Source: a virus
Direction: 5' to 3' (one strand)
IMG/VR virus record: IMGVR_UViG_3300021373_002787
Span: 22,217 to 86,216 of that record
Length of the DNA: 64,000 nt
Below are positions 8,065-59,866 of this stretch, in pieces. The first letter of the stretch is position 1; each line of letters opens with the position of its first letter. The translations under genes were made by a program, and so were the position numbers. The notes beneath the pieces were generated by a model. The model worked only from the letters and a program-made list of their open reading frames with translations, searched no databases and was not told the DNA's origin.

Positions 8065-8066
8065 TG

Positions 8067-10588: not shown

Positions 10589-10611
10589 TCAACTTATATT
10601 TTAATTAGTGT

Positions 10612-11615: not shown

Positions 11616-11619
11616 ATCG

Positions 11620-11627
11620 TTTATATA
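11620..11627 (-). promoter_or_regulatory. TATATAAA box immediately before the HAD gene
   Basis: The minus strand reads TATATAAAC, with only four bases between the box and the ATG at 11615. If it works as a -10 element, transcription would start at or inside the first codons. The gene lies behind a terminator, so a promoter close by is expected. Confidence 0.35.
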
Positions 11628-11663
11628 GGCAGGTTTACACTTGTTTCCTATGCTAATATAAAC

Positions 11664-11691
11664 AAAAAGCCTGACATAAAAAATGTCAGGC
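11664..11691 (-). terminator. Rho-independent terminator at the end of the internal-protein operon
   Basis: A perfect 9-bp stem, GCCTGACAT (11669-11677) and ATGTCAGGC (11683-11691), with a 5-base loop, followed on the minus strand by TTTTTG (11668-11663). It lies 37 bases after the stop of the 11728-12048 gene and closes the long leader-protein cluster. Confidence 0.88.
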
Positions 11692-11727
11692 CAATTATTT
11701 TGCAAAAGTGAGTGTTTTATTTATATC

Positions 11728-12048: not shown

Positions 12049-12100
12049 TTTTCTACGTTTTTTTTCAGTGCCGCTAGTTTAATAAAGTAAAGTGAGTATT

Positions 12101-12652: not shown

Positions 12653-12663
12653 AATTATTTAAT

Positions 12664-13269
12664 TTATTTTACTTTAATTTCAGTTCTAATCTGTAAGGTC
12701 GATCTTCCTCCATAAATACCGATAACAAATGAAGGTATAATTTTATTTATGTCAAGCAAATATTGAAATGGAACAGCAGTTACCGGCAATTCTATAAACC
12801 AGACCCCATAATTATTATTAGCACTCATTTGATATTTTTTGAATGGTAATATTTTCACCAATTCGTTAATGATGTTTTCAACCTCTTGAGGGTATTCTCC
12901 AGTTTTGGCTTCATTTACAAAGGATTCAAAGTTATTTAAGTGTTTCATTTTTCTTTTCTTTTTTTTGTATTCCTCTTCTGCATCGCCTTGGCCTGCAGGA
13001 ACATCACCAGAACCGTTCTCTGTAGATGTTGGAAGCTTGACTGGTCCGATTCCTCCGACGCTATCAATTGAGATATTTTCAACAACCTCTGGGAGGCCTT
13101 CGTGTTTTGTTTCTGCAAAACCTTTTAATTGTTTTAGAGTCATACCACTGACAAGATCTTTTACTTTGTCTCTATAATCTGAATCGACGTCCGAAATCTG
13201 CATATCGCCCTTTTTAACAGCGTATGCTACTCCCATTAATCTTTGCTGTGTTTTACTTTGACTTGGCAT
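12664..13269 (-). CDS. DUF3008-like protein fused to a capsid-targeting-leader protein
   Basis: The 201-aa frame has two parts. Residues 1-60 (MPSQSKTQQRLMGVAYAVKK, then MTLKQLKGFAETKHEGLPE) match my memory of the DUF3008 pattern of small phage and bacterial proteins. A Gly/Pro-rich linker (GNGSGDV-like, 85-100) and a lysine run YKKKKRK follow. Then at M108 a complete family leader starts, MKHLNNFESFVNEAK, and leads a 94-aa domain of unknown function. M108 (ATG at 12948) has an A-rich upstream context just like the true starts of the neighbours, so it may be used as an internal start. Two products, or one polyprotein cut at E120, are possible. Confidence 0.7.
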   Translation of the reverse strand: MPSQSKTQQRLMGVAYAVKKGDMQISDVDSDYRDKVKDLVSGMTLKQLKGFAETKHEGLPEVVENISIDSVGGIGPVKLPTSTENGSGDVPAGQGDAEEEYKKKKRKMKHLNNFESFVNEAKTGEYPQEVENIINELVKILPFKKYQMSANNNYGVWFIELPVTAVPFQYLLDINKIIPSFVIGIYGGRSTLQIRTEIKVK

Positions 13270-13315
13270 TTACGAAATCTTCATATAGTTTTACGTGCTC
13301 TATTGTTTAAATATT

Positions 13316-13681
13316 TTATAGCTTTAGCCCTATCGAAATTGCAGTTACATATTCTTTGGCGTAAGCAGGTGATCTTTTAGATTTACTTACAAATGGTAAT
13401 TTCTTAATGCTTGATATGGCCCGCTTTACATCAAACTTATCTAATACATGGTTTCGTTCTGCTAGGTCTGTTGCCGTTGCCGTTAAATTATATCCACCAA
13501 TTTTATTATCATAACTTGGCAAAGCTTGTATTTTCCAGTACATGTGTCCTGTTGCTTTATAAAGATCATCTTTGATTTCCTTTTTGTGGGCGTCTACTGC
13601 ATCGACAACTTTTTTGTAATCTTCTCTGCTCATAGATTCATTTACGATTAAGAATTCTTCAAATAATTTTACGTGTTTCAT
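13316..13681 (-). CDS. Capsid-targeting-leader protein (121 aa)
   Basis: It starts MKHVKLFEEFLIVNES, the family leader with a two-residue insertion before VNES; the predicted cleavage is after E15. The remaining 106 residues are mixed alpha/beta (KVVDAVDAHKKEIKDDLYK, then MYWKIQALPSYDN, then YVTAISIGLKL) and have no known motif. The arrangement of helix, strands, helix and strand could be a small ferredoxin-like fold, similar to other phage internal proteins in size. It lies between the DUF3008 fusion gene and a 64-aa leader gene, and is probably co-transcribed with both. Confidence 0.7.
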   Translation of the reverse strand: MKHVKLFEEFLIVNESMSREDYKKVVDAVDAHKKEIKDDLYKATGHMYWKIQALPSYDNKIGGYNLTATATDLAERNHVLDKFDVKRAISSIKKLPFVSKSKRSPAYAKEYVTAISIGLKL

Positions 13682-13692
13682 TTTTATTTTGA

Positions 13693-13887
13693 TTAGAATT
13701 TTTGATATTTTGATGTAAAATCTATCATTTGGGGTCCCATTTTCCTAATAAAATCAATAGTTTGTTGAGATATATCTGAAGTGTTTTCTAAATAATCACA
13801 AGCTTCTTCAATTTCTTTCTTTAATGCTGATGTAGAGATTACCTTTGCTTCATTTACGAAATGTTCAAGTAATTTTACGTGTTTCAT
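13693..13887 (-). CDS. Smallest capsid-targeting-leader protein (64 aa)
   Basis: It begins MKHVKLLEHFVNEA with the site V11-N12-E13|A14, so the mature peptide would have only 51 residues. That peptide is helical with both acidic and basic faces (LKKEIEEACDYLENTSDISQ, then FIRKMGPQMIDFTSKY). It has one cysteine and no signal peptide or membrane segment. In T4, small cleaved internal peptides of the head and IPI-type inhibitors of host nucleases have this size. A host-inhibitor role is possible but not shown by the sequence. Confidence 0.68.
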   Translation of the reverse strand: MKHVKLLEHFVNEAKVISTSALKKEIEEACDYLENTSDISQQTIDFIRKMGPQMIDFTSKYQKF

Positions 13888-13908
13888 TTTTATTAGTATA
13901 GTTTTTAA

Positions 13909-16005
13909 TTACCAAACGTAATCCATTTTTTTAATCTTAGAGATTCTGTCTTTAATTGACTTAGCGTAGTTCTTCACTTCTCTTGAATAGTAATTGCTAC
14001 TATATCCTTCTTCTTCTTCACGCTTTGCTTGATTTGTATAGTCTACATATCTGTTAAAATCATCTAGAAGATTTTGCATTGCGTTTGAAGCATCTCTTAG
14101 TTTAACCTCACGGCCTTTAGGATCCTTTCCGATGATAACATCTCCCCATTTTCCTTTAGCACCAGTAGCTAAACCATCTTTAATTTGAGAGGTAACTACA
14201 TCAATTGCATTTAAGACTTCTTTATCGATAGGCATTTTAGCAGCTCTATCTGCTAGGATCATGTGGTATCTGTCAAGATTTTCTTTCTTAAAGTCTTTAT
14301 CATTTTTAAACGCGATTGCTCCTTTTCTTGCAGTAGTTCTTTCATCACGTTTTGCCGAGGTAGAATATCTTGCTTTTAAAATGTCAAGATCAAGAACATA
14401 TGCTCTATCAGCAAGTTCAGCTACTTTAGTAATACTTGAGATTCCAGATCCCCATGAGTCTCTAGCGTTAGATTTATTAAACCCAACAGCATCTTCTTTT
14501 TTAGATGTTTTTAATGTTCTATCTCTTGATCCTCCTAGTCTCCTTTGATATCCACTGGCAAGCCATTCATTTTTTCCATTAGTTGCACCTAATAGTGTGT
14601 TTGCGGGAATAGTTTTGTGCCAGGAGTCCGCTGCATATGGGTTCTCCTTTTCATTGGTTGTAAAATACAGATAAACCGCATTGTTTCTCTTTTCTTTTCT
14701 TGCTTCAACTGGATCCATTTCGATAATATCTACATCTTGGATTTTATCAAGTTGAATCTTTGCCATACCGTAGAACACTTTAGCAAAATCTTTTTGCATA
14801 GAGCTTGCGCCCGTTAAGATTGACTGTAACTTCATTGATTGAAATGCTTCTGCAATCATCTCTTCAGATTCATTAACTGACTCTTTTAGTGTTTCAACGA
14901 ATTCATTAAATGATTCGTATATAAAATTATTTTTCATTTCTTTATTATTTTTATTATTTTTTGATTCAAATGTTCCTGTTGATGCTAGGTTGTAAAGGTG
15001 GTCGGCAATCTTTTTAGCTTTTGAACCTTTATGTCCATAAGTTGCAACTGTTTCTTCAGCCTCTTCGGGCATCATCTCTGTTAATTCCCACGGATCAAAC
15101 TCATCCATTAAATCATTTAAGATTTGTTTAGCCTCTTTTTCAAATTTATCAGCTTCGTTAACAAAAGATTCATCGAAGTTCCATCCTGTAATTTCTTCTT
15201 CAGGGATATCAATGTAATCCATTAAATACTCTGCAAACTCTTCTGCATCATCTCTATTCTTAAATTCGAATGTATTGGCAGAAGTCATCTTACCCATTTT
15301 AGAGTAATCAACTCTAAATGCTTCACCAGCTTCTCTAGCGTATCTTACAGACACTTCAATTGCTGGCTTTTTGGATTTAGATAGGTGGGTAGGTTTTTTA
15401 TGTTTTTTTAACCAATCGGTCTCGTGAAGTTGATCATCATCTTCTTCGTCTTCAACACCATCGCCGTCCTCATCATCGATTACGCTAGCATCAAGGCCAG
15501 TTCCTCTAGGTACACCAATTGTATCTGCTAGGGCTCCTGTAAGTCCTGGAGCCAGCTTTTTAGCTAGGTTTGGAGCTTTTTCCTCTAACTCTTCTTCTAG
15601 CTCTTCTGAGTTTTCTTTAATTGTAACTGGGAAAGTTTCTCCGTCAAATTCAAATTCTTCTTTACCTTCGTCTTTTGCTTTCTTAGCGGCAGCTACAAAC
15701 GCTCTTCCTTCTTCAATGATTGCAATTTGCGAAAGCGCTCTTTTTCCAAATGTAGAAAGCGAGATACCTTCTTCCGAAACGTTAAAGTATTTTGTATTTC
15801 TTCTGATCCACTTTGAAGAATCTTTAGAATATTCTTTTAAGATTGCATCAAATTCTTCCTGCGTAATTTTTCCGTCGGCAATTGCTTCAAGCATTTTATT
15901 TCTAACTCTAGCGCTTTTTCCAACTTGTACTGCAGGGTGATTTTCAGTGTATCTTCTCTTAAGGGTTATTTTACTTCCCTCATTTAAAAAATCTTGAAAA
16001 TTCAT
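13909..16005 (-). CDS. Large multi-site internal (polyprotein-like) protein
   Basis: The 698-aa protein starts MNFQDFLNEG, a short leader with the site L7-N8-E9|G10. Further sites of the same type lie at V282-N283-E284|A285 (SFVNEAD), V377-N378-E379|S380 and I384-A385-E386|A387 (MIAEA, as in the T4 leader). Residues about 103-131 (AKDEGKEEFEFDGETFPVT) are shared with the 649-aa protein at 22106. Then come a Glu-rich stretch, an Asp-rich linker (177-191), and a C-terminal half of about 310 residues without a known motif. M357, preceded by an Asn/Lys-rich stretch, looks like a former separate gene start. It could be a head-core component or a precursor cut into several injected proteins. Confidence 0.72.
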   Translation of the reverse strand: MNFQDFLNEGSKITLKRRYTENHPAVQVGKSARVRNKMLEAIADGKITQEEFDAILKEYSKDSSKWIRRNTKYFNVSEEGISLSTFGKRALSQIAIIEEGRAFVAAAKKAKDEGKEEFEFDGETFPVTIKENSEELEEELEEKAPNLAKKLAPGLTGALADTIGVPRGTGLDASVIDDEDGDGVEDEEDDDQLHETDWLKKHKKPTHLSKSKKPAIEVSVRYAREAGEAFRVDYSKMGKMTSANTFEFKNRDDAEEFAEYLMDYIDIPEEEITGWNFDESFVNEADKFEKEAKQILNDLMDEFDPWELTEMMPEEAEETVATYGHKGSKAKKIADHLYNLASTGTFESKNNKNNKEMKNNFIYESFNEFVETLKESVNESEEMIAEAFQSMKLQSILTGASSMQKDFAKVFYGMAKIQLDKIQDVDIIEMDPVEARKEKRNNAVYLYFTTNEKENPYAADSWHKTIPANTLLGATNGKNEWLASGYQRRLGGSRDRTLKTSKKEDAVGFNKSNARDSWGSGISSITKVAELADRAYVLDLDILKARYSTSAKRDERTTARKGAIAFKNDKDFKKENLDRYHMILADRAAKMPIDKEVLNAIDVVTSQIKDGLATGAKGKWGDVIIGKDPKGREVKLRDASNAMQNLLDDFNRYVDYTNQAKREEEEGYSSNYYSREVKNYAKSIKDRISKIKKMDYVW

Positions 16006-16027
16006 ATTTAATTGTTTCTTTGTTTTT

Positions 16028-17293
16028 TTATATATCTTTCTTAACTAAGAACTGAGAAAACGTAAGAAGATTCGACTCATCGATAGGACTCTCTTGTGTT
16101 TTTAACTTTTGATGGTTCAAATAAGTCTTAAAAGGCATTACGCTTGATTCGTTACTCTTTAACATAACAATTGCCTCAATTTTATCGACAATTGTATTGA
16201 TTTGCTCCATTAAGTCTGCATTTATAATATCAGTCTCTTTTGCTCTTTTCTTTCTAAATGAACCAATTGCAATCTTATATAGTTCTGAAAGAACCCTATT
16301 GTTTACGTATTCAATTGTCTTTTCGTTCTTGATAAATTTAGTATTCAATTCAAATTCAGGTCGATCACTAAAGTCTGCGGAATCAAAACTAACACCAACA
16401 TATTTTGCTGCATTCTCATTAACATATGCGTTAAATACATTTGAAATTAGTTCAATGTATCTCTCGTCTGCTTGGTCTGATTCAAGTTGAATATTATCAA
16501 CATCATATTCAGAAAAGAACTCAACTAGGTCTAATAGTGAAATTTGATATGTGTCGCTTGGTTTTCTAGACTCACTAACCTCAGTTTTTGTTCCACTAAG
16601 TTTAAAGTTTTTTACCGTCTTGCCATCAAAGAAATTAATAACTAAAGAATCAATATCTCCATCAAGATCTTCATTAAGAGCCGTCTTACTTAACGAATTA
16701 TTAAAAATGTTATATGCTCTTCTGGTAAAACTTAACGCTTCATATGCTTGATTTCTTTCGGCATCACTCATTTCTAATAGTTTTACTAGCTCATCTTTCT
16801 GATGAGAACTCAATACTCCTTTAAAAACAACCTGTGGTCTTTGAACATCTAATTTATCTGCCCATTCAAAAAGAACCTTTGGGTCTCTAATAACCTTCTT
16901 TATTAGTGTATTGTCTAGAGGGTTCATTACCTGAATATGTGTTAAGATAAGCCCGTTCTTTGGTGTTTGATCGTATTTAATGTCAATTGTTTGACTGTCT
17001 GTCATGTAGTCAAAACCAAACTTCCAGTCAAGCGGCATTTCAGCCTTTGTCACGTCGTCAACCGATTCAAAATATTTAATTGCATTCTCATAATATTTAG
17101 CGATTGTGCGATCTACTTTATCCAACGGCTTCTTTTTACCACTCTTAAAATAGGTGTAACCAACTGAATCGTTTTGAACGTGAAACGAAGATGCCTGTAC
17201 TTTTTCAGTAACAACACATGGAGACTTTAGCATCTCCATAAAATCTTCTCTATTCGTTGATTCAAAATATGTATGTAAGCTTTGTAGTGCCAT
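16028..17293 (-). CDS. Ligase-like nucleotidyltransferase, divergent motif I
   Basis: A 421-aa protein with a segment TEKVQASSFHVQ near residues 29-40. This resembles motif I of RNA-ligase-type nucleotidyltransferases (T4 Rnl2-like EKIHG), with K31 as the candidate for covalent AMP attachment and alanine (A34) in place of the usual glycine. It continues with FKSGKKKPLDKVDRTIAKYYE, a pattern I remember from uncharacterised phage proteins. A motif such as KFGFDYM follows, and VVFKGVLSS later on. The start MALQSLHTYF lacks the family leader, but the gene lies inside the leader cluster. The role may be RNA or DNA repair; catalytic competence is uncertain because of the altered motif. Confidence 0.55.
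   Translation of the reverse strand: MALQSLHTYFESTNREDFMEMLKSPCVVTEKVQASSFHVQNDSVGYTYFKSGKKKPLDKVDRTIAKYYENAIKYFESVDDVTKAEMPLDWKFGFDYMTDSQTIDIKYDQTPKNGLILTHIQVMNPLDNTLIKKVIRDPKVLFEWADKLDVQRPQVVFKGVLSSHQKDELVKLLEMSDAERNQAYEALSFTRRAYNIFNNSLSKTALNEDLDGDIDSLVINFFDGKTVKNFKLSGTKTEVSESRKPSDTYQISLLDLVEFFSEYDVDNIQLESDQADERYIELISNVFNAYVNENAAKYVGVSFDSADFSDRPEFELNTKFIKNEKTIEYVNNRVLSELYKIAIGSFRKKRAKETDIINADLMEQINTIVDKIEAIVMLKSNESSVMPFKTYLNHQKLKTQESPIDESNLLTFSQFLVKKDI
16029..16036 (-). promoter_or_regulatory. GATATATA box upstream of the 698-aa gene
   Basis: The minus strand reads AAGATATATAAAAAAAC, 23 bases upstream of the ATG at 16005, overlapping the stop codon of the ligase-like gene. It is one of the recurrent boxes and could give extra transcription of the distal half of the cluster. 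Confidence 0.4.
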
Positions 17294-17300
17294 AGTTTTA

Positions 17301-18416
17301 TTATTTAGCGATGTCTTCTGGTAGAGGCAGACCTGACATTCCTAGTTTAACTTCAAATTCTTTAAAGATCTCATCTCTCTTTTTAGGAAACTTAAACATT
17401 GATGAGTTAATTAAATCTCTTAAACTCTCATATGTCATTAAATCACTTACTTTTGCGCCATCGAAGAGAAGGTCTGCTATCTCTTCTGGTAGTCTTGTAA
17501 TTTCTTTATCGAATTCTTTTAGTAACTTTGCGTTTTTAACCAATCCTCTCTTACCAACAAATGATTTACGAACCTTTACAACTCCTTGATTCAAGCGAAT
17601 TACATATGCTTCGTACTCTTTTGTTTCTCCCTCTTCTGTTTGATCTATAATCTCAACAAATGATTTACCAATTGCCGACATTAGGAGGATGTTTCTATAT
17701 GCACCTTTATATTTTGACTCGTCTTTTGTAAAGTCTGGAGAGTGGTACATAAATCTACTCCAATTAATATCTCTTGATAACATTAGGTCGACTTGACCTA
17801 CTCCATTATTTGATTTACCCTCAATAGGAGCAGCGATTGATACCTGCTGGAATCCTACAGCCATTGAGGTGTCTAACCCTTTTTCTTTCAATAAATCATT
17901 CATATCGAAAAGAACTTTAGCCAGTGAAGTGTCTAAGTGTCCTGCAATCTTATCGGCAGAAACAGCAATATCAATATCTCCGCTAGTCTCTCCTGGATTC
18001 TTTTTTCCAGCGCTTCCAATAACTGCAGCATCCTCTCCGATACCAGCAATTCCAATATGAGGAAAAACATTTTTCTCGATCCATTCTAGAGTTGCTGCAA
18101 CTTCATGTTGTTCAAATGGTCTGGACTGTGCAATTGCATTACCACTTTCACTTACAAACTGTTCAAACGCAGCTGCAACATATTTACGACCGTGTTTATT
18201 ATGTAATATGTCTGAGATTAGACCTTCTTTGTCAATCCCTTTAGGGTTACCAATTTTATAACTTAGCGACCACATCTTTCTTAATTCAGCAGTTGACGTC
18301 TTTTTAAGTTTTTTGTACTCTCTGCGGATTGATTCAGGATCCCTCTTTGAAGAAAAGTTTGATCGCGGAATCTTATCTTCACTTACAAACTGTTCAAATA
18401 ATTTAACGTATTTCAT
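17301..18416 (-). CDS. Pol-beta-type nucleotidyltransferase with two capsid-targeting leaders
   Basis: The 371-aa protein starts MKYVKLFEQFVSED (site after E13). A domain of about 70 residues follows, then a second leader-like segment KYVAAAFEQFVSES with the site V88-S89-E90|S91. At the DNA level 21 bases are identical between the two copies. The main domain has the nucleotidyltransferase signature: G134-S135, the pair D147-x-D149 in SGDIDIAVS, and a third acidic residue D210 in GQVDLMLS. It would transfer a nucleotide to an RNA, protein or small molecule. Cleavage at both sites would release a small peptide and a free enzyme of about 280 residues. Confidence 0.72.
   Translation of the reverse strand: MKYVKLFEQFVSEDKIPRSNFSSKRDPESIRREYKKLKKTSTAELRKMWSLSYKIGNPKGIDKEGLISDILHNKHGRKYVAAAFEQFVSESGNAIAQSRPFEQHEVAATLEWIEKNVFPHIGIAGIGEDAAVIGSAGKKNPGETSGDIDIAVSADKIAGHLDTSLAKVLFDMNDLLKEKGLDTSMAVGFQQVSIAAPIEGKSNNGVGQVDLMLSRDINWSRFMYHSPDFTKDESKYKGAYRNILLMSAIGKSFVEIIDQTEEGETKEYEAYVIRLNQGVVKVRKSFVGKRGLVKNAKLLKEFDKEITRLPEEIADLLFDGAKVSDLMTYESLRDLINSSMFKFPKKRDEIFKEFEVKLGMSGLPLPEDIAK
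18147..18167 (-). repeat. Internal copy of the leader-coding repeat
   Basis: These 21 bases, encoding FEQFVSE plus flanking sequence inside the nucleotidyltransferase gene, are identical to the leader-coding bases near the start of the same gene (about 18378-18398). The same segment, with one to five changes, begins at least ten other genes between 5.1 and 20.8 kb, so the leader-coding sequence is a dispersed DNA repeat of about 40 bp. Confidence 0.7.
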
Positions 18417-18424
18417 CTCTATTT

Positions 18425-18778
18425 TTACTTATTATGATATTCTATTTGGTCTTTTAAAAATTCCTTAATTGTTGGAATTACATCATCTTCAGAATTAATT
18501 TCATCAGCCCAGTTGTCATCACCAAAAACCTCTCCATTTCTAAAAAATCGAATAGATCCGTAATCACGATCATTATCTTTGTATTTAGGTCCAGTCAGAA
18601 TATAATCCATTCTATTTGCCAGAATTCCCTCTTTTTCAATAGTTGCCGGATACCCAGCCTTTTTAAGTATCTTAGCCGCTTTTCTCAGGTTTAATTTTAC
18701 ACCTCTATCTCTTCCTACTTCTTTAGCAGTTATCGTGTATTCACCTATAAACTGCTCAAATAATTTAACGTATCTCAT
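18425..18778 (-). CDS. Capsid-targeting-leader protein (117 aa)
   Basis: It starts MRYVKLFEQFIGEY, with I11-G12-E13|Y14 as the predicted cleavage site (a tyrosine after the cut is atypical). The body has a basic helix (GVKLNLRKAAKILKKAGYP), then strands with an aromatic core (MDYILTGPKYKDNDRDYGSI, RFFRNGEVFGDDNW), and an acidic C-terminal helix. It resembles no family I know. It lies directly downstream of the NMN-adenylyltransferase-like gene. Confidence 0.68.
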   Translation of the reverse strand: MRYVKLFEQFIGEYTITAKEVGRDRGVKLNLRKAAKILKKAGYPATIEKEGILANRMDYILTGPKYKDNDRDYGSIRFFRNGEVFGDDNWADEINSEDDVIPTIKEFLKDQIEYHNK

Positions 18779-18844
18779 TATTAGTTGTTTGTTTTTAATT
18801 ACAGTACTAATATAATTAAAAAGTCTGACATAAAAAATTCTGGC

Positions 18845-19450
18845 TTATTTTATTATGTGTTTTCTTAATTTGTCATAGTATTTATAAAGATATTTCGGCA
18901 CCATCTTTTCGAATGCTTCTCTATCATCATTTGCAAGTGCTTCTCTAGTCTTTGTACCGCTAGGTCCTCCTTCTGCTCTTGCATCTACCATTTCTAGTTT
19001 AAAATCCGGATGTACAACCGTATCGGTCTTTGGTCCAGTAACATATTTAATCTGTGGTGTGTATGCCTTGATTCTGTCGCTTCCAGCACCTACACCAACA
19101 GTCTCATATCCTTGCTCTCTTAAGAATCTAACAAACCAAGGAATTACTGTTCTACCATAGCTATTTGGGTAAATAAAGAAATCTGCGATCTCCTTCTCGT
19201 TCTTTGCAACCTCTTGTCCAATTTGAAGTAGAAGGCTTTCTGGGAATGGAGACTCTTCACGCTTTGAAACTATTTGCATCGCAACTACTGGCTTACCAAA
19301 CATTTTGGCAGCATTTTTAAGGGCTGCGATATGTCCATTATGAAATGGCTGGAATCTACCAGGCATTACCACGACTTCAGTACCCTCAATTGGTTGAGTG
19401 GTGTCTACCGCCTCACTAATAAACTGCTCGAATAGTTTTACGTGTTTCAT
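18845..19450 (-). CDS. Nucleotidylyltransferase (NMN-adenylyltransferase-like) with capsid-targeting leader
   Basis: After the leader MKHVKLFEQFISEA (site I11-S12-E13|A14) comes a complete HIGH-superfamily nucleotidylyltransferase. The nucleotide-binding motif is GRFQPFHNGH (31-40, with the HxGH histidines H37 and H40), the GVGAGSDRIKAY segment lies near 120, and the C-terminal SGTKTRE (164-170) matches the ISSTKxR signature. The length without leader (188 aa) fits NMN adenylyltransferases. It would make NAD from NMN and ATP, or activate a similar phosphate ester. Such an enzyme carried in the virion could act at once after injection, for example to restore NAD, but that is inference. A cytidylyltransferase-type substrate is the main alternative. 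Confidence 0.78.
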   Translation of the reverse strand: MKHVKLFEQFISEAVDTTQPIEGTEVVVMPGRFQPFHNGHIAALKNAAKMFGKPVVAMQIVSKREESPFPESLLLQIGQEVAKNEKEIADFFIYPNSYGRTVIPWFVRFLREQGYETVGVGAGSDRIKAYTPQIKYVTGPKTDTVVHPDFKLEMVDARAEGGPSGTKTREALANDDREAFEKMVPKYLYKYYDKLRKHIIK

Positions 19451-19469
19451 CTTTTTCTTTATTTTTTGC

Positions 19470-19916
19470 TTAGCCTATATAATAGCTACTAGATTTATCT
19501 ATATTAAGTTCTTTACCATAGTCATCAGTAAATGCATTGTATGGTTTTTTAGCACTTAGTGAAAATGAATTTGCGTCAATTTCTTGGATTAAGAAATGTA
19601 AAGATTCTACTCTAGCCATTCTTTCTAAACCTGGTCTAATAGTTTCTATAGCTTGGTCAATATCAAACCCATCTTTGGCGTTAAATGTCATAAATGTTTT
19701 AGAACCTGGTTTAATTGTAACTCTACTAGTTGATAAAGATTGAATATCACTAGGTTTTACGAATTTTTTAACCGATGAAACAAAACCCTTTGAATTTTTC
19801 CATGGCATATAATTAGTAGATGCTCCTATTCCACCTGCTCTCATTTCAGTATCGCGGTCTACTCCATAGTACTCGGCTTCATTTACAAATTGTTCAAATA
19901 GTTTTACGTGTTTCAT
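19470..19916 (-). CDS. Capsid-targeting-leader protein (148 aa)
   Basis: It begins with the exact leader MKHVKLFEQFVNEA. The mature part (135 aa) starts EYYGVDRDTEMRAGGIGAS and has strand-rich segments (SRVTIKPGSKTFMTFNAKDG, then SLHFLIQEIDANSFSL) separated by a helix (IDQAIETIRPGLERMARV). It has no cysteine, membrane segment or known motif. The gene lies between the NMN-adenylyltransferase-like gene and the first of two duplicated small genes. Confidence 0.7.
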   Translation of the reverse strand: MKHVKLFEQFVNEAEYYGVDRDTEMRAGGIGASTNYMPWKNSKGFVSSVKKFVKPSDIQSLSTSRVTIKPGSKTFMTFNAKDGFDIDQAIETIRPGLERMARVESLHFLIQEIDANSFSLSAKKPYNAFTDDYGKELNIDKSSSYYIG

Positions 19917-19958
19917 TTTGATGCTATATTTTATTTAAATTAGATGTTTTCCAGCTTT

Positions 19959-20216
19959 CTAACATCTGCACATCGCATAACCTAGAACGTTTTCAACATA
20001 TGATTCTAATTCTTCTATAGTAGCATATATTTCATCTGGATCTGTATTTGGATCGTAAAGACCTTTATCCATTAAATAGTCAATAAACATGTCCATGTCT
20101 TCGTTATCCCAAACATCTCTTCCTTTCATTGTTTTAGCCCACCATTTTTTAGCCTCTTTCTCGATTTTCTTATCGGCTTCATTTACAAATTGTTCGAATA
20201 GTTTTATGTGTTTCAT
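19959..20216 (-). CDS. Capsid-targeting-leader protein, paralogue A (85 aa)
   Basis: It starts MKHIKLFEQFVNEA, and the rest is nearly the same as the protein at 20559-20807: both have DKKIEKEAKKWWAKTMKGRD (K or T before WW), MDMFIDYLMDKGL and EELESYV. The tail here ends in GYAMCRC with two cysteines, where the paralogue has GYEFDY. It is a small, acidic, helical protein with a Trp-rich helix at about 20-30. It is a recent duplicate, with the gene at 20226 lying between the copies. Confidence 0.75.
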   Translation of the reverse strand: MKHIKLFEQFVNEADKKIEKEAKKWWAKTMKGRDVWDNEDMDMFIDYLMDKGLYDPNTDPDEIYATIEELESYVENVLGYAMCRC

Positions 20217-20225
20217 TGCTTCTTT

Positions 20226-20540
20226 TTATCTTTTAATTTCTATATTATAATAATGTTCATTATCACCATTTTCTTTAACAACCTGTAGAGCTTTTGCACC
20301 AAAATCTTTAATAGCCTCTCTAATATCTTTTGCAATAGATTGGCCCTTCATACCTCTATATGTTATGAAAATATTTTTTGTGTCTTTAGGTCCTTTTGGA
20401 AAAGCATAAGGAACAAATTTACTTTTCATTTCTTGAGCAGTGCCATGATTCCAATCAAGTTCATTTTCAAGGTGCTTGATTAATTCATCAACGTTTACAG
20501 ATTCATTAATATATTGTTCGAATAGTTTTATGTGTTTCAT
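20226..20540 (-). CDS. Capsid-targeting-leader protein (104 aa)
   Basis: It starts MKHIKLFEQYINES, site I11-N12-E13|S14. The mature 91 residues contain a helix pair (VDELIKHLENELDWNHGTAQ, then EMKSKFVPYAFPKG) and a small strand-helix-strand unit (NIFITYRGMKGQSIAKDIRE, then YYNIEIKR). The function is unknown. The gene sits between the two paralogous genes at 19959 and 20559, so it was probably enclosed or moved when the duplication formed. Confidence 0.7.
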   Translation of the reverse strand: MKHIKLFEQYINESVNVDELIKHLENELDWNHGTAQEMKSKFVPYAFPKGPKDTKNIFITYRGMKGQSIAKDIREAIKDFGAKALQVVKENGDNEHYYNIEIKR

Positions 20541-20558
20541 CTTGGTGTTATATTTTAT

Positions 20559-20807
20559 TTAATAGTCAAACTCATAACCTAGAACGTTATCAACATATGA
20601 TTCTAGTTCTTCTCTAGTATCACTTAGTTCATCTGAATTTGGATCTACTAGACCTTTATCCATTAAATAGTCGATGAACATGTCCATGTCTTCGGCATCC
20701 CAAGAATCTCTTCCCTTCATTGTTTTAGCCCACCATGTTTTAGCCTCTTTCTCGATTTTCTTATCGGCTTCATTTACAAATTGTTCAAATAGCTTTACGT
20801 GTTTCAT
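20559..20807 (-). CDS. Capsid-targeting-leader protein, paralogue B (82 aa)
   Basis: It starts with the exact leader MKHVKLFEQFVNEA, followed by DKKIEKEAKTWWAKTMKGRD and an acidic helical body ending in GYEFDY. It is the close paralogue of the 85-aa protein at 19959-20216. The upstream sequence AATAAGGAGTAAAATG is one of the few in this window that resembles a Shine-Dalgarno site. Confidence 0.75.
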   Translation of the reverse strand: MKHVKLFEQFVNEADKKIEKEAKTWWAKTMKGRDSWDAEDMDMFIDYLMDKGLVDPNSDELSDTREELESYVDNVLGYEFDY

Positions 20808-51625: not shown

Positions 51626-51897
51626 TATTTAACGTTTGTGTTATCTTTTTTAACCGTAAAGTTTTTCCACTGTTGCAATTTCTTTACTGAGTTAATAATC
51701 TCGTTTAAATAATCATTAATGAAAGAGATAAAATCACTCATTGTTTGATTTCTTAAAATATGCCCTGAAAGATTTCTCTGCATTAGACTCTCAGAATAGT
51801 CGAATCCTTGATTTTTCAAGTCATTCTTTCTAGTCTTCGCTCCTGAATAGAGATTCTTAAGTTTATATTTTAATAAGTCCTTATATAAAGATTCCAT
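51625..51897 (-). CDS. Small structural or assembly protein (90 aa)
   Basis: A 90-aa basic, mostly helical protein beginning MESLYKDLLKYKLKNLYSGA, with no membrane segment. It sits between the gp6 and gp7-position genes and overlaps both neighbours by one base, so it is translated together with the baseplate proteins. It may be a small wedge component or a chaperone. Confidence 0.6.
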   Translation of the reverse strand: MESLYKDLLKYKLKNLYSGAKTRKNDLKNQGFDYSESLMQRNLSGHILRNQTMSDFISFINDYLNEIINSVKKLQQWKNFTVKKDNTNVK

Positions 51898-53723
51898 TAT
51901 AATGCTTTTCTTGTTCCAGCCTGTAATCTAGTATAAACTGTTCTAGGTACTGGCGTTTCGTCAAATGTTACAGAAAGACTTGCTTCTTCGTTAATTTTAG
52001 GAGTGTCTTCAATTAGGTCACCGTCACGGTCTAACCAACCGCCTCTAAATACAGCAACTTCCTCTTTTTCCATAATGATATCGCCCCATTGGTCGAGACC
52101 TGCAATATCATAAGGAATTGAATCGTTCGGCTCAATATTAACCTTCTTTACATCGTCGATTTTCTTAAAGAAGACGTACTTTTGTTTTCCGTTTCCAATA
52201 TCTTCAAGAGTTACAGGTTCTTGAGCTGCTATTGTTGTTGTTACTGACTCATAATATCCAAGTCTTCTTGCTGTCTCTTCGGTTTCACTTCTAAACTGAA
52301 CGTTTACCGCATCTACGCCTTCAACCTCTTCCAAGATGTAGATAATATCACTCTTCGGTAACTTATCTCTTCTTGTAATGTTTAACATATAGTTTGACAC
52401 TGCAGTTCTTATATCATTAAAGATGTCCTCTTTGCTAAATCCTTCAAAATATCTAACTGAAATATCAATAGCATATTTACGAATCTTTGGTCTTACGAAC
52501 TGAACCTCACTTGTTACCATCATTTGACCGCTCTCTTGTAAAACTTCATACATTTTATCGTATTCCGTTTGGTCAAAGAACATTTCCTGCTGTGGAATTG
52601 AGAAGTAGTCCTGATTTTTTGCTAGCTTCTTATTAATATCTGGAACCGCAAAAATATAAACAACATTATCGTCGTCAATATATCCATCATCGCTCGTGTT
52701 ATAAGCATCAATATATGAGAATATTCCATATCTTGATAGGAAATATTCATAATTATCTGGGGTTGCAAGAACAAATGACTTACTTGCAAATGGAGCAATC
52801 ATCTTAGTAAATTCAGTAGATTCAGGCTCCGACCCCATTTTAGGAGCTGAAGTAACCTCAACGTCTAACAATTCGTTTAAGTCGTAGAAATTTCCAGCAG
52901 CATCTTTACCCTCATCAACCCATTTAATTTTTAGGTCTTCTGCATCTTCAATGTTTCCTTTGGCGCCTTCATGTATAATATACTCAACTTCAATTGTCGA
53001 TCCAAGTACTGGAATTGATCCAAAGTTATTTGTTCCAAAATAGATGTCAAGCCCACCGCTAATACCGGTCTTTACAATAAATCCTTTATCGCCTGAGTTC
53101 ATTTCATAGATTGAATTAAATTTAGACCATTGTTCACCATTAACAGAAACCTTAACCAAGTTATGATCAGTTTTTCCGGTTTGTATATTATATGTCTGGA
53201 AACTTTCACCGTCTCCCGTAAGAGTTTGTGTCTCTACTTTACCCTGTACAATAACTGCTTTAATCTTCTCTACTTGAGATTTTGAAATTCTAAACAAGTC
53301 TTTTGATGTTCTTACCATATATGAAAGACCATTTGCCTCAAGTTTAAATTCAGCGTTTGCAGGAATAGAAATACCATCGCCTGCAATTTTGGTGAAATCA
53401 CCAGACTCTGGTTTTAATCTAATCGATATTTCTCCAGTTGCCGCGAACCCTCTAGTTGGATCGTGTCCAGTAAGTCTTGCTAGACCATAAATAGATTCAG
53501 GCTGCTGAGCAGTATAGATGTTTTGTTCTACTGTCGAGTCTTCAACATAGAATAGAATAAGTTCTCCAAGTTCAGAAAGTACTCTTAAGATCTGAGCAAA
53601 TGGAGAAGCGTTAGTAAATAGAGTGTTTGACCTTTCGTAAAGCCTAGAAATATAGGTTCGAGTGTCCTCGAATATCTGTTGAGCCGTTGCTCTTGTTTTT
53701 GTTAAGAATTTTAATTCAGCCAT
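51897..53723 (-). CDS. 6: Baseplate wedge protein gp6 (baseplate J-like)
   Basis: gp6 joins the wedges into the ring of the contractile baseplate. The 608-aa length is close to T4 gp6 (660 aa). The N-terminus has the helical FEDTRTYISRLYERSNTLFT and then FAQILRVLSELGELILFYVE, a helix-rich start common to gp6/J proteins. The middle has strand pairs (VKVSVNGEQWSKFNSIYEMN, then GLDIYFGTNNFGSIP) typical of the J-like domain, and the C-terminal half has KYAIDISVRYFEGFSKEDIF, then KSDIIYILEEVEGVDAVNVQ. Its position directly after gp25 supports the call. Confidence 0.75.
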   Translation of the reverse strand: MAELKFLTKTRATAQQIFEDTRTYISRLYERSNTLFTNASPFAQILRVLSELGELILFYVEDSTVEQNIYTAQQPESIYGLARLTGHDPTRGFAATGEISIRLKPESGDFTKIAGDGISIPANAEFKLEANGLSYMVRTSKDLFRISKSQVEKIKAVIVQGKVETQTLTGDGESFQTYNIQTGKTDHNLVKVSVNGEQWSKFNSIYEMNSGDKGFIVKTGISGGLDIYFGTNNFGSIPVLGSTIEVEYIIHEGAKGNIEDAEDLKIKWVDEGKDAAGNFYDLNELLDVEVTSAPKMGSEPESTEFTKMIAPFASKSFVLATPDNYEYFLSRYGIFSYIDAYNTSDDGYIDDDNVVYIFAVPDINKKLAKNQDYFSIPQQEMFFDQTEYDKMYEVLQESGQMMVTSEVQFVRPKIRKYAIDISVRYFEGFSKEDIFNDIRTAVSNYMLNITRRDKLPKSDIIYILEEVEGVDAVNVQFRSETEETARRLGYYESVTTTIAAQEPVTLEDIGNGKQKYVFFKKIDDVKKVNIEPNDSIPYDIAGLDQWGDIIMEKEEVAVFRGGWLDRDGDLIEDTPKINEEASLSVTFDETPVPRTVYTRLQAGTRKAL

Positions 53724-54111: not shown

Positions 54112-54954
54112 TTAGCTGTGGAACATCCAGTCAACTCCTTCGTCTCCTTTAATTTCTTCATTAATTTCAGCAAGTTCCTCGTCTCCCATTGACTTAATAG
54201 CGTCATAGTCGAAGTCAACATTTCCAGGAAGAGCAAACTTAAAGATTCCAAGTTTAGCACCGAGAGACTGTTTAATCTTAGCACTTACATATCTAAAGAA
54301 AATCTCATCATTGTACAGTGCACAGTCGCTAATTGTTTCATAAACTTGAAGAATCACATCACCCTTTGGGGTGTCTCCCATAAACTTTAACTCTCCAGTT
54401 AATTGTGAATATGAGAATGAAATTGGATTCTCTAGGATTTGTCTAGCTAAATCGACAAGTGAAGCATTAACAACATAATATTGTAACTCTTCTGCAAACT
54501 CGGCAGGACCTGAACCTTCATATGCATCTCTAAATAACATCTTATCAATTGCAAAGTCATTTCCACCTTCAAATCGAAGATCCATTCCTCCACCGCCGCC
54601 TTGCCAGCCGCTTGTTAGGTCCCAAAGACCAAATACTGAATAGACCTCACCAGATCCATCAGGTCTCGCTCCTGGAAGATGTAGAGCTCTGTGGTTTTTA
54701 AAGTATTCACTACTAAAAACAGTTTTCGGAATGTGATAAAAGTTCTCAGTTACCGAATACTCATACTTTTTATAGAACCATTTTTTAGCTCTTTTAATAA
54801 TGTTTAGGATTTCTCGTTGAGGAAGGTTTACCGGAACCATACATGCGCCGGTGATTTCATCTCCAATTTCTTCAAGAAATGCGTTCAAGCAATTATCACC
54901 AAAATCTCTTGGTGTAGTTAGTCCTGAATCGCTTCCACTTCTAATTTCGCTCAT
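54112..54954 (-). CDS. Neck protein, possibly gp13-like
   Basis: A 280-aa protein with an N-terminal segment LPQREILNIIKRAKKWFYKK that I associate with T4-like neck protein gp13 (T4: 309 aa). A glycine-rich loop (SGWQGGGGG, about 115-123), FAIDKMLFRDAY, and a long helical region (LVDLARQILENPISFSYS, then FFRYVSAKIKQSLGAKLGIF) follow. The acidic C-terminus ends WMFHS. The placement next to gp25 fits an order of head-to-tail connection genes, but it is not conclusive. Confidence 0.45.
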   Translation of the reverse strand: MSEIRSGSDSGLTTPRDFGDNCLNAFLEEIGDEITGACMVPVNLPQREILNIIKRAKKWFYKKYEYSVTENFYHIPKTVFSSEYFKNHRALHLPGARPDGSGEVYSVFGLWDLTSGWQGGGGGMDLRFEGGNDFAIDKMLFRDAYEGSGPAEFAEELQYYVVNASLVDLARQILENPISFSYSQLTGELKFMGDTPKGDVILQVYETISDCALYNDEIFFRYVSAKIKQSLGAKLGIFKFALPGNVDFDYDAIKSMGDEELAEINEEIKGDEGVDWMFHS

Positions 54955-54955: not shown

Positions 54956-56269
54956 TTATGAGTTTATTTTTTTACTTACGACAACTTCAGCGTCGTCAAA
55001 TCTTGTTTCATCACTTACAAACCCCTCTCTAAAAATACCACCAATCATCTTTCCTTTGAAAACCCCATCTCTTCCAAACACATAACAGTTTTTAGCAGTG
55101 ACACTACCATTAACATAAGAAGATTTGATCTTTGATTCGGTAACTTCAGTTCCTTGATAAAGATTACAGTATTCTATTGTTGAGTTTTTAACCTTACAAT
55201 TATAAAAGTTCGAATTAAATACATTTCCATTAACCTCACAGTCAACAAGATCAAAACCATCAAGCTCGTAACAAACTGGGAATTTACCATCTTTCACCTG
55301 AATTGCTCCTAAGTCTGAGTCATAGTTAATTATGCCATCTACAAGTCCTCCAACCGATAGAGCAGAAACAATCTTATGTTTAATTCTTTCCCATTGCAAT
55401 CTTATTACGGTGTCTGATTCTTGCAAATCAACCATTAGATCAATTTTCGGAAAATGCTTCTTTAAGTTTTTATGGTCCTTCAATATTTCTCTATATGGAA
55501 GGTTTCTATTAAGAATCTTTTTCAATTCAACTTTATTAGTGTCTGTAAATTCCGTATGAAAGCAAGACTTCCACATTTGAATAATAAATCTATCTAATAG
55601 GTAAAATATATTGTCCTTCTTTTCTTCGTAGTCTTTTCCTCCAACATACCTAAACTCAAGATAATTTTTAATCTTCTTGTCAAAATTTATTCCGTAATAT
55701 TTTGTGTTAGGAAAATTGAAATTATTTACAGTTAAAAAACTATCATTAAAATAGAAAGACTCGTGTTTAGGCATAACCCACTTAATAGACTTTGCATAAA
55801 TTGAATCTTTTCGGTTTGGAAATAATTTATAAACTTGATCCTCATTGAACTCAAGGATAAACTTAAGAACGTTCATCTTTGAGATTGTGTTATTGTCTTC
55901 AAGATAATTCTTATCGAATGAAAGATTTAAGTGAATTGAAGACCTGTCGGTAGTGTAGCCATTTTCTTTTATCCATCCTAGCATTTTTAAGATTACTATT
56001 CTGGCGTTTTTATATGGCATCGCACCGGTAACTAACTCAATTAAGCCTTTACCTCCCGACATGTCAGGTTCTATCTTAAACACCTTATCATCGGGCTGAA
56101 AATCAGAGTGTGCTTTATCTTCGAGCTGTATTTTACGCCCAAGAAGTTCAGAAACTTTTTGTTGAGTTTCCTCTAGACTGTAATTAGAGTAAAACTCAAA
56201 CTCGATCCCAACAAGAGAAGCGTTGAGCACCGAGTTTGAGTCTGAATGTCTATTTAGTGTTTGCATCAA
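54956..56269 (-). CDS. Amidoligase-like enzyme fused to a pentapeptide-like beta-helix
   Basis: The 437-aa protein starts with a catalytic-looking domain: VGIEFEFYSNY (about 20-30), FKIEPDMSGGKGLIELVTGA (about 65-85) and SSIHLNLSFD (about 113-122). These fit the pattern of amidoligases of the glutamine-synthetase fold (GxExE and HxN motifs), which join amino groups to carboxylates. From about 335 to 420 the sequence changes to a beta-helix-like run with repeated N, C, V and S positions (VNGNVFNSNFYNCKVKNSTI, then VNGSVTAKNCYVFGRDGVFK). Such a fusion next to tail genes is unusual. It could modify a virion or host-surface protein. The substrate is unknown. Confidence 0.55.
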   Translation of the reverse strand: MMQTLNRHSDSNSVLNASLVGIEFEFYSNYSLEETQQKVSELLGRKIQLEDKAHSDFQPDDKVFKIEPDMSGGKGLIELVTGAMPYKNARIVILKMLGWIKENGYTTDRSSIHLNLSFDKNYLEDNNTISKMNVLKFILEFNEDQVYKLFPNRKDSIYAKSIKWVMPKHESFYFNDSFLTVNNFNFPNTKYYGINFDKKIKNYLEFRYVGGKDYEEKKDNIFYLLDRFIIQMWKSCFHTEFTDTNKVELKKILNRNLPYREILKDHKNLKKHFPKIDLMVDLQESDTVIRLQWERIKHKIVSALSVGGLVDGIINYDSDLGAIQVKDGKFPVCYELDGFDLVDCEVNGNVFNSNFYNCKVKNSTIEYCNLYQGTEVTESKIKSSYVNGSVTAKNCYVFGRDGVFKGKMIGGIFREGFVSDETRFDDAEVVVSKKINS

Positions 56270-56297
56270 ATGATTATGATATTATACCTTTGTTTAG

Positions 56298-56305
56298 TAT
56301 ATATC
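56298..56305 (-). promoter_or_regulatory. GATATATA box upstream of the amidoligase-like gene
   Basis: The minus strand reads GTGATATATACTAAAC, 28 bases upstream of the ATG at 56269, in the 55-bp gap after the S1-domain gene. The spacing is the same as for the box before the S1-domain gene. Confidence 0.45.
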
Positions 56306-56324: not shown

Positions 56325-57599
56325 TTATTCTGGAAGCTTAAGAAAGATCTTTTGAGAATCTTTATCAATTCTACTAATCTGAACGGTTATCTTATCTCCT
56401 GCATTATATAAATCCATCACTGATGGTTCTAATTCACTAACATGCAAAAGACCAACCAGTCCGGTATCAACTGTTATAAACAACCCGTAATCTTTTTTAG
56501 TTTTTACGGTAGCCTCGACAGTACATGGGCATTTAAACTTTTTATCAACATCTCTCCATGGATTATCGATTGTTTCTGCCTTTTGACTTAACGTTATTTT
56601 AGAATTACTAATTATGTCTTTTACCCAGAATTCAATCACATCTCCTGGTTTAATTTCTCTTGACTTAAATTTAGAGAGCGTGTCAGCGTCTAAATCGTTA
56701 GTGTGAATCATTCCAGTAAGACATGTGTCAAACTCAACAAATACACCATATTTAGCAGTTCCTGTTACACTACCAGTTAGCTTATCTTCGATCTTCGCCT
56801 TTAGCTCTTCAATTTTACCAGGTATAAGAGCTTTTAAGTATTTTCTGTGAGAAACTACAATCGTACCTCTTTCCGCTGAGAAGGATACGGGTACTACATA
56901 TAATTCTTCTCCAAGAATAGAATTAAAGTCGTGTAGCTTGTTGATTCCAGCTAGTGATCCTGGCATGAAACAATCAACTCCTTGAATATTGACGATATAA
57001 CCACCGTTCTCGATTAATCTATCAATCTTACCAACCCATGCTGTATCTCCATCTTCTACTCCAGCCTGTAAGTCTCTAAATACTTTTTGTTTCATTCCAC
57101 CAGAGATAGAACCTAAAACGTGGTCCTCTTTGGCTTGAACAAGAACAGAAACATCATCACCTGGACGATATTCTTCGATAATATATCGAGGTTCTTTAGA
57201 AGTTTTAACATAGACCATTTCTCTCCAGTTAACATCAACTGTAATCCATTCTGAACTAATAGCAAACACTTTACCGTCGATAATTTCACCTTCAGTTACT
57301 GAAGATCTCATATTCGACATGCTATTATGTCCTTCCATTAGGTCATACATCTCTTGAGCATATGGCTCTCTAGAGTAGACCCTGTCTCCTTCTTTAGTCT
57401 TAATGTGTGGATTTGGTTTTCGATAGACTGTAATGCAGGTTGCTTCATAAGCAGCCCAGTCAAATTCACCATTGGCGTCTAGCCAGTTTTCGATGCGGTC
57501 AGCGCCGCCGTCATTTTCAGAATCTGGAGTTTTAACTTCCAGAGTTTCTACGGGAGTAAGTTCTTTCTTCTTAATCCTCGCTCTTTTTTTGTCTGTCAT
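56325..57599 (-). CDS. S1-domain (ribosomal protein S1-like) RNA-binding protein
   Basis: A 424-aa protein with about 100 N-terminal residues of its own (acidic and helical), followed by four OB-type S1 domains at about 103-165, 185-255, 272-340 and 356-423. Typical S1 stretches are GKIDRLIENGGYIVNIQGVD, GSVTGTAKYGVFVEFDTCLT (then GMIH), and VKTKKDYGLFITVDTGLVGL (then LHVSEL). S1 recruits mRNA to the 30S subunit and is especially important where Shine-Dalgarno sites are missing, as in Bacteroidota and in this phage. It could redirect ribosomes to phage mRNA, or protect or process RNA. It has its own box upstream and stands among late tail genes, which is an odd place for a translation factor. 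Confidence 0.8.
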   Translation of the reverse strand: MTDKKRARIKKKELTPVETLEVKTPDSENDGGADRIENWLDANGEFDWAAYEATCITVYRKPNPHIKTKEGDRVYSREPYAQEMYDLMEGHNSMSNMRSSVTEGEIIDGKVFAISSEWITVDVNWREMVYVKTSKEPRYIIEEYRPGDDVSVLVQAKEDHVLGSISGGMKQKVFRDLQAGVEDGDTAWVGKIDRLIENGGYIVNIQGVDCFMPGSLAGINKLHDFNSILGEELYVVPVSFSAERGTIVVSHRKYLKALIPGKIEELKAKIEDKLTGSVTGTAKYGVFVEFDTCLTGMIHTNDLDADTLSKFKSREIKPGDVIEFWVKDIISNSKITLSQKAETIDNPWRDVDKKFKCPCTVEATVKTKKDYGLFITVDTGLVGLLHVSELEPSVMDLYNAGDKITVQISRIDKDSQKIFLKLPE

Positions 57600-57627
57600 T
57601 TATTTTTAGATTAAAAGTGTAACAATG

Positions 57628-57635
57628 TATATATC
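57628..57635 (-). promoter_or_regulatory. GATATATA box upstream of the S1-domain gene
   Basis: The minus strand reads AAGGATATATACATTG, 28 bases upstream of the ATG at 57599, in the 43-bp gap after the 214-aa gene. It belongs to the recurrent candidate promoters. Confidence 0.45.
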
Positions 57636-58287: not shown

Positions 58288-59177
58288 TATTCTTCTAGTT
58301 TAATATCTTCGATTTCAACATCGAACGGTTCTTTATCAAATGGAGTAGTCTCAACTCTAATATCGTTTCCAACCTCTTGAATTGAATATGAATGATATTC
58401 CTTACCTATTTGCGGATCCATCAAATCTTTCATCTCCTGAACTATCTCATCCTTCTCTAGTTCTATAAAAGTTGATGTGCCGTCTTCCTCAATCACTGTT
58501 TTCCAATTACCTATCTCAGGAGTCTCTATTGTTTCAATTGTTGTTTCTCCCTTCTTCTTTAAAACTCCAAGAGCGGTAACAGTCTGGTCCTCTAAATATC
58601 TTTTAATAGAGTTGAGTAATATATTTGTCTGTGTGTTTATTTTATAATCATACAATTTTGATGTTTGGTTATAGGTGTAACTTGTAGACACGGTGTTTCT
58701 TCCAATAAACTGTCCCTCTTTAGGCTTTATTGAAATTGTCATAATTTCTTTATCATCTCCTTCAAGAGTTTCAAACTCTCTTTCAGCCTTAAAATAACTT
58801 TCCCATAAGTCTTCATTTTCAAATAACTGTTCAATTTTTACATTTACTGAAAAAAGAGAAGAACTTGGTCCGTAACCGCTACCATCCGCAAACCTTTTAA
58901 GAGCATTTGATAATTCTTCGCCTACCTGATACTTAATTGGATCTTTAACGGAAGCCCTAAATTTTAAAGGAGAAAGATTTCCATTGTTAAGACTTCCCGT
59001 TATATCAGCGTTTATTAAGGCACTAAAATAACTTTCAACGTCTTCTGTAAATTCTTTGATTCTATCCAACTCTACGGCTGAAATATCATACGCATATTCA
59101 TAGTACTCAATAACATTGGTAGTTACCGTAAAAGTGAAACTATAGCCCCATTTATTTAATAGTTCATCAAGTGTCAT
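58287..59177 (-). CDS. Structural protein downstream of the gp5-like gene (296 aa)
   Basis: The 296-aa protein starts MTLDELLNKWGYSFTFTVTT and is an alpha/beta protein with a long amphipathic middle (EQLFENEDLWESYFKAEREF) and an acidic end (IEDIKLEE). Strands such as TVSTSYTYNQTSKLYDYKIN occur in the centre. It overlaps by one base with both the gp5-like gene and the 214-aa gene, so the three are translated together. No known family is visible. Confidence 0.55.
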   Translation of the reverse strand: MTLDELLNKWGYSFTFTVTTNVIEYYEYAYDISAVELDRIKEFTEDVESYFSALINADITGSLNNGNLSPLKFRASVKDPIKYQVGEELSNALKRFADGSGYGPSSSLFSVNVKIEQLFENEDLWESYFKAEREFETLEGDDKEIMTISIKPKEGQFIGRNTVSTSYTYNQTSKLYDYKINTQTNILLNSIKRYLEDQTVTALGVLKKKGETTIETIETPEIGNWKTVIEEDGTSTFIELEKDEIVQEMKDLMDPQIGKEYHSYSIQEVGNDIRVETTPFDKEPFDVEIEDIKLEE

Positions 59178-59866
59178 TATTTACCAGTTTGTTGATAGTT
59201 ACTGTGTTCGCCTTTTAATTGACCCACTGTCGGTGTCGTGGGTGGAAGTGGAGGACCACTAGGACCAACCCCAGTTGGATGTGTATGCGCTAAATAATCA
59301 TCTAATAGTTTATTTAACCATTCTTCAAGTGACTTACCACGAACGGCTGGTTCACTCTCATCAGTACCATCATTTGTTGCTATAAAAATATCGCCTGAAT
59401 TAATAAAGATCTGTCCCTCTGGGCTAAATCGAATCATTGGGGCCTCGGTGTTTGATTCTCCAGTTGTAATTACAAGGCCGTCTTCGACTGAGTAATAGAC
59501 TCTTAGATTTCTTTCATCATCATAAACAAGAGAAATAACGTTTTGCGGCTCTTCACTATTCTCAAGAACCTCACTCTTCAGGGTATCATTCTGGTTCACC
59601 TGGAACCAATATTCCGGGTGATATATGTTACCATTATCAAAACGTACTGATACAATATCACCAACCCTAGGAACTGCATGGGAACCTGGAAGGTTTCTAT
59701 TCATTGGAGTTGCCCATGGAATAGCCTCTTCTGGTAAGAGGTCAAACTTACCAAACACTTTGATTCTACATCTACCTGAATAAAGCGGATCTTCATTGTT
59801 TACCACTTCACCAAGCCAATGAGAATCTCGAGTGTTGTCTCTATATAGCTCGTTAGTAGTCTCCAT
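59177..59866 (-). CDS. 5: gp5-like baseplate spike protein (OB domain, no lysozyme)
   Basis: The 229-aa protein has the N-terminal OB-fold of T4 gp5/VgrG-type spike proteins: WLGEVVNNEDPLYSGRCRIK followed by VFGKFD (about 17-42), then IPWATPMNRNLPGSHAVPRVGD and VSVRFDNGNIYHPEYW. The C-terminal part is a short beta region with LAHTHPTGVGPSGPPLPP, an HxH pattern as found in metal-binding spike tips. The lysozyme domain of T4 gp5 is absent, so peptidoglycan must be cut by another protein. It is coupled to both neighbours by one-base overlaps. Confidence 0.68.
   Translation of the reverse strand: METTNELYRDNTRDSHWLGEVVNNEDPLYSGRCRIKVFGKFDLLPEEAIPWATPMNRNLPGSHAVPRVGDIVSVRFDNGNIYHPEYWFQVNQNDTLKSEVLENSEEPQNVISLVYDDERNLRVYYSVEDGLVITTGESNTEAPMIRFSPEGQIFINSGDIFIATNDGTDESEPAVRGKSLEEWLNKLLDDYLAHTHPTGVGPSGPPLPPTTPTVGQLKGEHSNYQQTGK

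Follow-up and report, generated by a model that had tools for sequence, protein, structure and literature searches.

Phages carrying rpS1 have been known since 2020, and the closest described systems are the rpS1 genes of huge phages and Lak phages (Al-Shayeb 2020, PMC7162821). In the part of that report considered here, rpS1 is correlated with SD-poor genomes, while a fixed position among tail genes, a late box, a leader and an SD control do not feature in it. Another phage-encoded bS1 is known from the cyanophage PhiMa05; it groups with Vampirovibrionia proteins and represents a separate capture (PMC13157829). It was not among the matches in our search for relatives of the S1 protein described below. 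In Bacteroidetes phages, bS21 genes (Chen 2022, PMC9723584) likewise encode a ribosomal protein beside late structural genes, are expressed late and have led to the proposal of a late hijack of the ribosomes of Bacteroidetes. They concern a different protein, whereas both bS1 and bS21 occur in the present lineage. Attention to phage ribosomal proteins as mRNA selectors has centred mostly on bS21; PMC6375957 left bS1 aside owing to the ambiguity of S1 domains.

We analysed a stretch of 64,000 nt (the window), part of an 86-kb virus record, in which a sequence-only reading had considered a four-domain S1 protein to be notable. With respect to novelty this is only half the case: the fixed position, the timing and the details of the leader are new relative to the considered part of PMC7162821, but rpS1 in huge phages poor in SD sites had already been described there. 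The reading we favour, at a probability of roughly 60%, is a late phage-owned bS1 that would act on host 30S subunits and deliver SD-less late mRNAs. The widespread lineage would offer a clean test case, since its S1 is a core gene of unambiguous bS1 homology, apparently old and placed for late expression.

Homology and domain make-up of the phage S1 protein

The S1 protein and its elements are located as follows.

56325..57599, minus strand: phage bS1-like protein, 424 aa, ATG start, four OB/S1 folds corresponding to bS1 D1-D4, without D5-D6
57447..57464, minus strand: FDWAAY motif, residues 46-51, common to the Bacteroidia bS1 N-terminus
57336..57362, minus strand: YAQEMYDLM helix, residues 80-88, at the place of the E. 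coli uS2-binding helix SFAQLFEES
57105..57293, minus strand: S1 fold 1, approx. residues 103-165, R126 where E. coli has Lys43
56850..57044, minus strand: S1 fold 2, approx. residues 186-250, phage signature CFMPGSLAGINKLHDF replacing AFLPGSQIDVKPIRD
56580..56795, minus strand: S1 fold 3, approx. residues 269-340, RNA-binding positions Y284, F287 and H299
56334..56534, minus strand: S1 fold 4, approx. residues 356-422, RNA-binding positions Y371, F374 and H386

The ORF is matched by the Pfam S1 family (PF00575) at E 2.2e-21 with two stretches being significant independently; the remaining two folds are visible via the collinear profile alignment to bS1 D1-D4 and the AlphaFold2 model. A single collinear stretch of the bS1 profile models spans residues 73-420, and profile-profile alignment with cellular bS1 (hhalign) runs from D1 to D4 over 321 columns (E 5.4e-37). 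Four beta-barrel folds are predicted by AlphaFold2 with good local confidence (pLDDT 77), the inter-domain arrangement being unsure at a pTM of 0.49. The best matching solved structures are bS1 chains in 30S mRNA-delivery complexes. Judged by profiles and model, the protein is unambiguously homologous to bS1 with D1-D4 collinear, and the description as a four-domain S1 protein thus proved right. Nevertheless it reaches only 143.7 bits against TIGR00717, the curated bS1 equivalog, far under the cut-off of 577 bits, and has no good match in PHROGs.

We retrieved 117 copies from IMG/VR loci. Protein identity is as low as 39% and fourfold-degenerate sites are only ~44% identical, which argues for a real ORF and not one open by chance. 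Bacteroidota bS1 comprises six S1 domains (PMC6705787), but only four are present in the phage protein. D5-D6 were not found in any relative examined, and full-length copies of the lineage (380-452 aa) end after D4. This corresponds to a known working size, since E. coli tolerates the loss of D5-D6 from its bS1, and D1-D3 are enough for 30S binding (PMC3858243). Further differences from Bacteroidota bS1 are an identity of 25-30%, the N-terminal insert NPHIKTKNGDKVYS and the domain-2 signature CFMPGSLAGINKLHDF; the collinear D1-D4, the N-terminal motif and the RNA-binding positions are shared.

The catalytic domain of S1-domain nucleases (RNase R/II/E, PNPase) is not present in the protein, which carries S1-type domains only. 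As host S1 is reported to activate the T4 endoribonuclease RegB (PMC9409239), the phage protein could in principle serve a phage endoribonuclease as cofactor. No RegB match was obtained in four lineage genomes, a weak search without positive control, and we regard this role as barely conceivable.

The protein had been described as having its own N-terminal region. This applies to the phage-specific insert, whereas the N-terminal 100 aa are partly ancestral: they retain an anchor-like helix and, as in Bacteroidia bS1, the motif F-[DN]-W-xx-[FY]. Among 38 diverse copies of the lineage, F46 and W48 of the motif are found in 35 and 37, respectively. The helix is conserved to a similar degree (Y80 34/38, A81 38/38, Q82 37/38, Y85 37/38), and R126 is present in 36 copies, the other two having Lys. 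Contacts of E. coli bS1 with uS2 are made by Lys43 and by Phe5, Gln7 and Phe9 of the N-terminal helix, and its domains 1-2 bind the ribosome and not RNA (PMC10123108). Position and motif hence suggest that residues 80-88 together with R126 are equivalent to the uS2 anchor of E. coli; the hhalign alignment begins C-terminal of the helix and leaves the helix itself unaligned. The helix and domain 1 would thus anchor the phage protein to uS2 of the host 30S subunit, where it may take or share the place of host bS1.

RNA-binding positions, chosen from general knowledge of the S1 fold, are strongly conserved in the same 38 copies: in fold 3, Y284 is kept in 35 (Phe in the other three), F287 in 38 and H299 in 37, while Y371, F374 and H386 of fold 4 are invariant. 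This conservation would also suit an RNA chaperone or mRNA-stability factor off the ribosome, which protects or unfolds late A/U-rich phage transcripts without replacing host bS1. S1 folds resemble general RNA binders as well, and the long divergence from cellular bS1 (stem of >3 changes per site, see below) points in the same direction. However, domains 1-2, which bind the ribosome in E. coli (PMC10123108), are retained, the longest invariant run of the whole protein is the domain-2 signature, and the anchor-like helix is conserved. We therefore consider an action off the ribosome rather unlikely.

A shortened bS1 with an anchor-like helix and without D5-D6 also resembles a competitive inhibitor in outline. 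It might sit on uS2 as a decoy, block the delivery of host mRNAs and so contribute to host shut-off. The RNA-binding positions of D3-D4, kept in 35-38 of the 38 copies, speak against this; moreover E. coli still grows with a bS1 that lacks D5-D6 (PMC3858243), and the late promoter-type box described below would be ill-timed for shut-off. A decoy is accordingly improbable. On the favoured reading as a working bS1, domains 2-4 would guide the late phage mRNAs, which are A/U-rich, unstructured and SD-less, to the decoding channel.

Relatives and origin

A 98.6%-identical copy is encoded by a 166-kb relative. The genome is T4-like, with DnaB-like helicase, primase, gp32-type SSB, DNA helicase, baseplate wedge and hub. 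Further S1 relatives are found in uncultured huge phages of 462, 634, 636, 642 and 735 kb as well as in Prevotella Lak phages, whose copies differ by stopping after D3.

A comparison with host S1 by phylogeny had been suggested. We built a tree from 15 phage copies, 43 Bacteroidota sequences and 12 others, mostly cellular. All 15 phage copies, including those from huge and Lak phages, are set off by a branch with SH-aLRT 100 and form one clade apart from cellular bS1, although the stem of this clade is very long (>3 changes per site), such that attraction is possible and may exaggerate the split. The phage copies share the CFMPGSLAGINKLHDF-type domain 2, VTGTxxxGxFxEF in domain 3 and the common truncation. 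Owing to the single clade and these shared features, the data speak for one old acquisition from a cellular bS1, retained as four-domain form. A recent capture from the host was considered and is rejected by the tree, with the same reservation about long branches.

The source of the gene was probably a Bacteroidota bS1. Support for the Bacteroidota side is 29 in the tree, and it is the N-terminal motif alone that points to this phylum. The host itself probably belongs to the Bacteroidota as well; pointers to this are the nearest relatives in culture, the presence of bS21 and the motif at the N-terminus of S1.

Tail-gene position, promoter-type box and leader

The surroundings of S1 contain the following features.

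51897..53723, minus strand: baseplate wedge subunit, phrog_219
54112..54954, minus strand: head-tail adaptor / neck protein, phrog_211, with neck protein homologues in T4-like phages
54956..56266, minus strand: amidoligase-like protein, PF12224 in 12/35 relatives, pentapeptide/beta-helix-like C-terminus, follows S1 throughout the lineage
56297..56305, minus strand: GATATATAC box of the amidoligase-like gene, box in 38/38 relatives
57600..57635, minus strand: conserved S1 leader including the box, TTACACTTTTAAT element at 57610-57622, unstructured
57627..57635, minus strand: GATATATAC box, candidate late promoter of S1, 28-36 nt upstream of the ATG
59177..59866, minus strand: baseplate hub/spike OB-domain protein, PF04717, phrog_430

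As proposed from the sequence, S1 stands among tail and baseplate genes (phrog_211, phrog_219, PF04717/phrog_430). In loci retrieved with the amidoligase-like and adaptor genes as queries and S1 unused, S1 is located directly upstream of the amidoligase-like gene in 105 of the 109 loci having the latter (~10 contigs are counted twice). Two of the four exceptions end at the contig edge, one has an intervening ORF and one a 74-aa ORF at the contig edge. The order S1-amidoligase-adaptor-wedge is fixed while the genes between hub and S1 vary freely. S1 is thus a core gene of the lineage. The same gene order, with insertions, is found in the 462-kb huge phage LR756500; the larger huge phages encode the amidoligase-like gene as well, but distant from S1.

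The amidoligase-like gene is Amidoligase_2-like and occurs in the same huge phages; in many relatives its leader seems capable of folding into a hairpin that includes the box. In one contig, both S1 and the amidoligase-like gene are seemingly split into two ORFs, maybe by frameshifts.

The fixed cassette, together with the proximity of S1 to tail genes in the huge phages of 634-642 kb, could indicate a protein that is packaged in the tail or baseplate or needed for building them. Yet no S1 was found in T4-like phages whose wedge and neck proteins are homologous, and the functional positions of bS1 are conserved. Moreover S1 begins with MTDKKRARIKKK and lacks a peptide like MKHVKLFEQFVNEA, which resembles the capsid-targeting sequence (CTS) of T4 and is carried by other proteins of the same phage. 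The earlier suggestion that S1 may be packaged is not borne out by this comparison, and a virion or assembly role is very improbable. About a dozen ORFs of the window (5173-20807, minus strand) start with the nearly identical MKHVKLFEQFVNEA and may be internal head proteins; one of them (18845-19450) looks NMNAT-like by eye.

A promoter-type box of its own had also been ascribed to S1, and [GA]ATATATA is indeed found in 35/38 S1 leaders, usually ~36 nt ahead of the ATG. In the 166-kb relative the box also precedes many structural genes elsewhere. The late promoter sequence of T4 is TATAAATA. By analogy, the GATATATA-type box is a putative late promoter from which S1 would be transcribed alongside the tail genes. 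Late expression, as surmised before, is likely from this box and the position in the tail module.

The 36-nt S1 leader shows a mean identity of 84% to that of the window; the corresponding values are 44% for fourfold sites within S1 and 57% for the sequence upstream of the leader. The TTACACTTTTAAT element occurs once in the genome on the coding strand. AC[CT][CT]TT is found in 32/38 S1 leaders, 5 amidoligase leaders and 8/151 other starts, and the leader element is not recognisable upstream of S1 in huge phages and Lak. The start region is almost unstructured (MFE -0.7 vs -2.1 at other starts). We speculate that the leader is a target of self-regulation by S1. Unique conservation of the S1 leader was considered and dropped: three genome comparisons rank it 1st, 2nd and only 9 of 23, the last suggesting that box-bearing leaders in general are fairly conserved.

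Shine-Dalgarno sites and ribosomal proteins

The window had been described as having A-rich leaders without GGAGG at almost all starts, and this is confirmed. SD-like 4-mers are observed at 0.056 vs 0.047 after shuffling, GGAGG is absent and the A fraction of leaders is ~0.5. The 166-kb relative (152 starts) likewise lacks SD sites at the same A fraction, and the shuffled level is found in the window and four lineage genomes alike. T4 late genes, the positive control for the count, give 0.64 vs 0.17.

It had been argued that such leaders call for a dedicated S1. This does not stand up to comparison with the T4-like Bacteroidota phages PTm1, MaF61 and MA9V-1 (Tenacibaculum, Flavobacterium, Chryseobacterium), which encode wedge homologues. 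Neither S1 nor bS21 was found in them, in a search that for S1 had no built-in positive control while the same collection elsewhere gave relatives of 30-35% identity. Their SD-like 4-mers are also at the shuffled level, and Bacteroidia hosts themselves ignore SD (PMC9976891, PMC6847099). Missing SD sites are thus a feature of the host phylum and do not count as evidence for phage S1, and a need for phage S1 is not supported, as S1-less phages use similar leaders. Accordingly, we discarded SD absence as a sign of S1 function. The lineage shares the few-SD trait of huge rpS1 phages, but this trait is unspecific and common to S1-less relatives. The published link of phage rpS1 to missing SD sites would hence be at least partly a host-phylum effect. 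The phage crAss001 was dropped as an SD-free control because it is slightly SD-enriched (0.178 vs 0.109).

Delivery of SD-less late mRNAs by a phage bS1 would be consistent with the finding that F. johnsoniae bS1 raised initiation ~twofold on one SD-less mRNA (PMC9976891). A second ribosomal protein, bS21, is encoded by the 166-kb relative and by 8/14 further lineage contigs (9 contigs in total), many of them fragments, as well as by 4/6 S1-bearing huge phages. Judged by eye, the bS21 of the 166-kb relative has a Tyr that corresponds to Tyr54 of F. johnsoniae, so that it need not free the anti-SD. Tentatively, and with considerable doubt, both phage subunits may refit host ribosomes late in infection, which would give the phage a 30S platform of its own for late mRNAs without SD; the amount of S1 would be set by feedback on its conserved leader, and the adjacent amidoligase-like enzyme may modify a partner.

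In the 166-kb relative, the bS21 gene (142512-142703, minus strand; L023 2512-2703) overlaps the end of the preceding gene and has no SD. Several small ORFs of the same genome (L016 1-2000) share the leader ACACCAAAGAGAG immediately 5' of the ATG.
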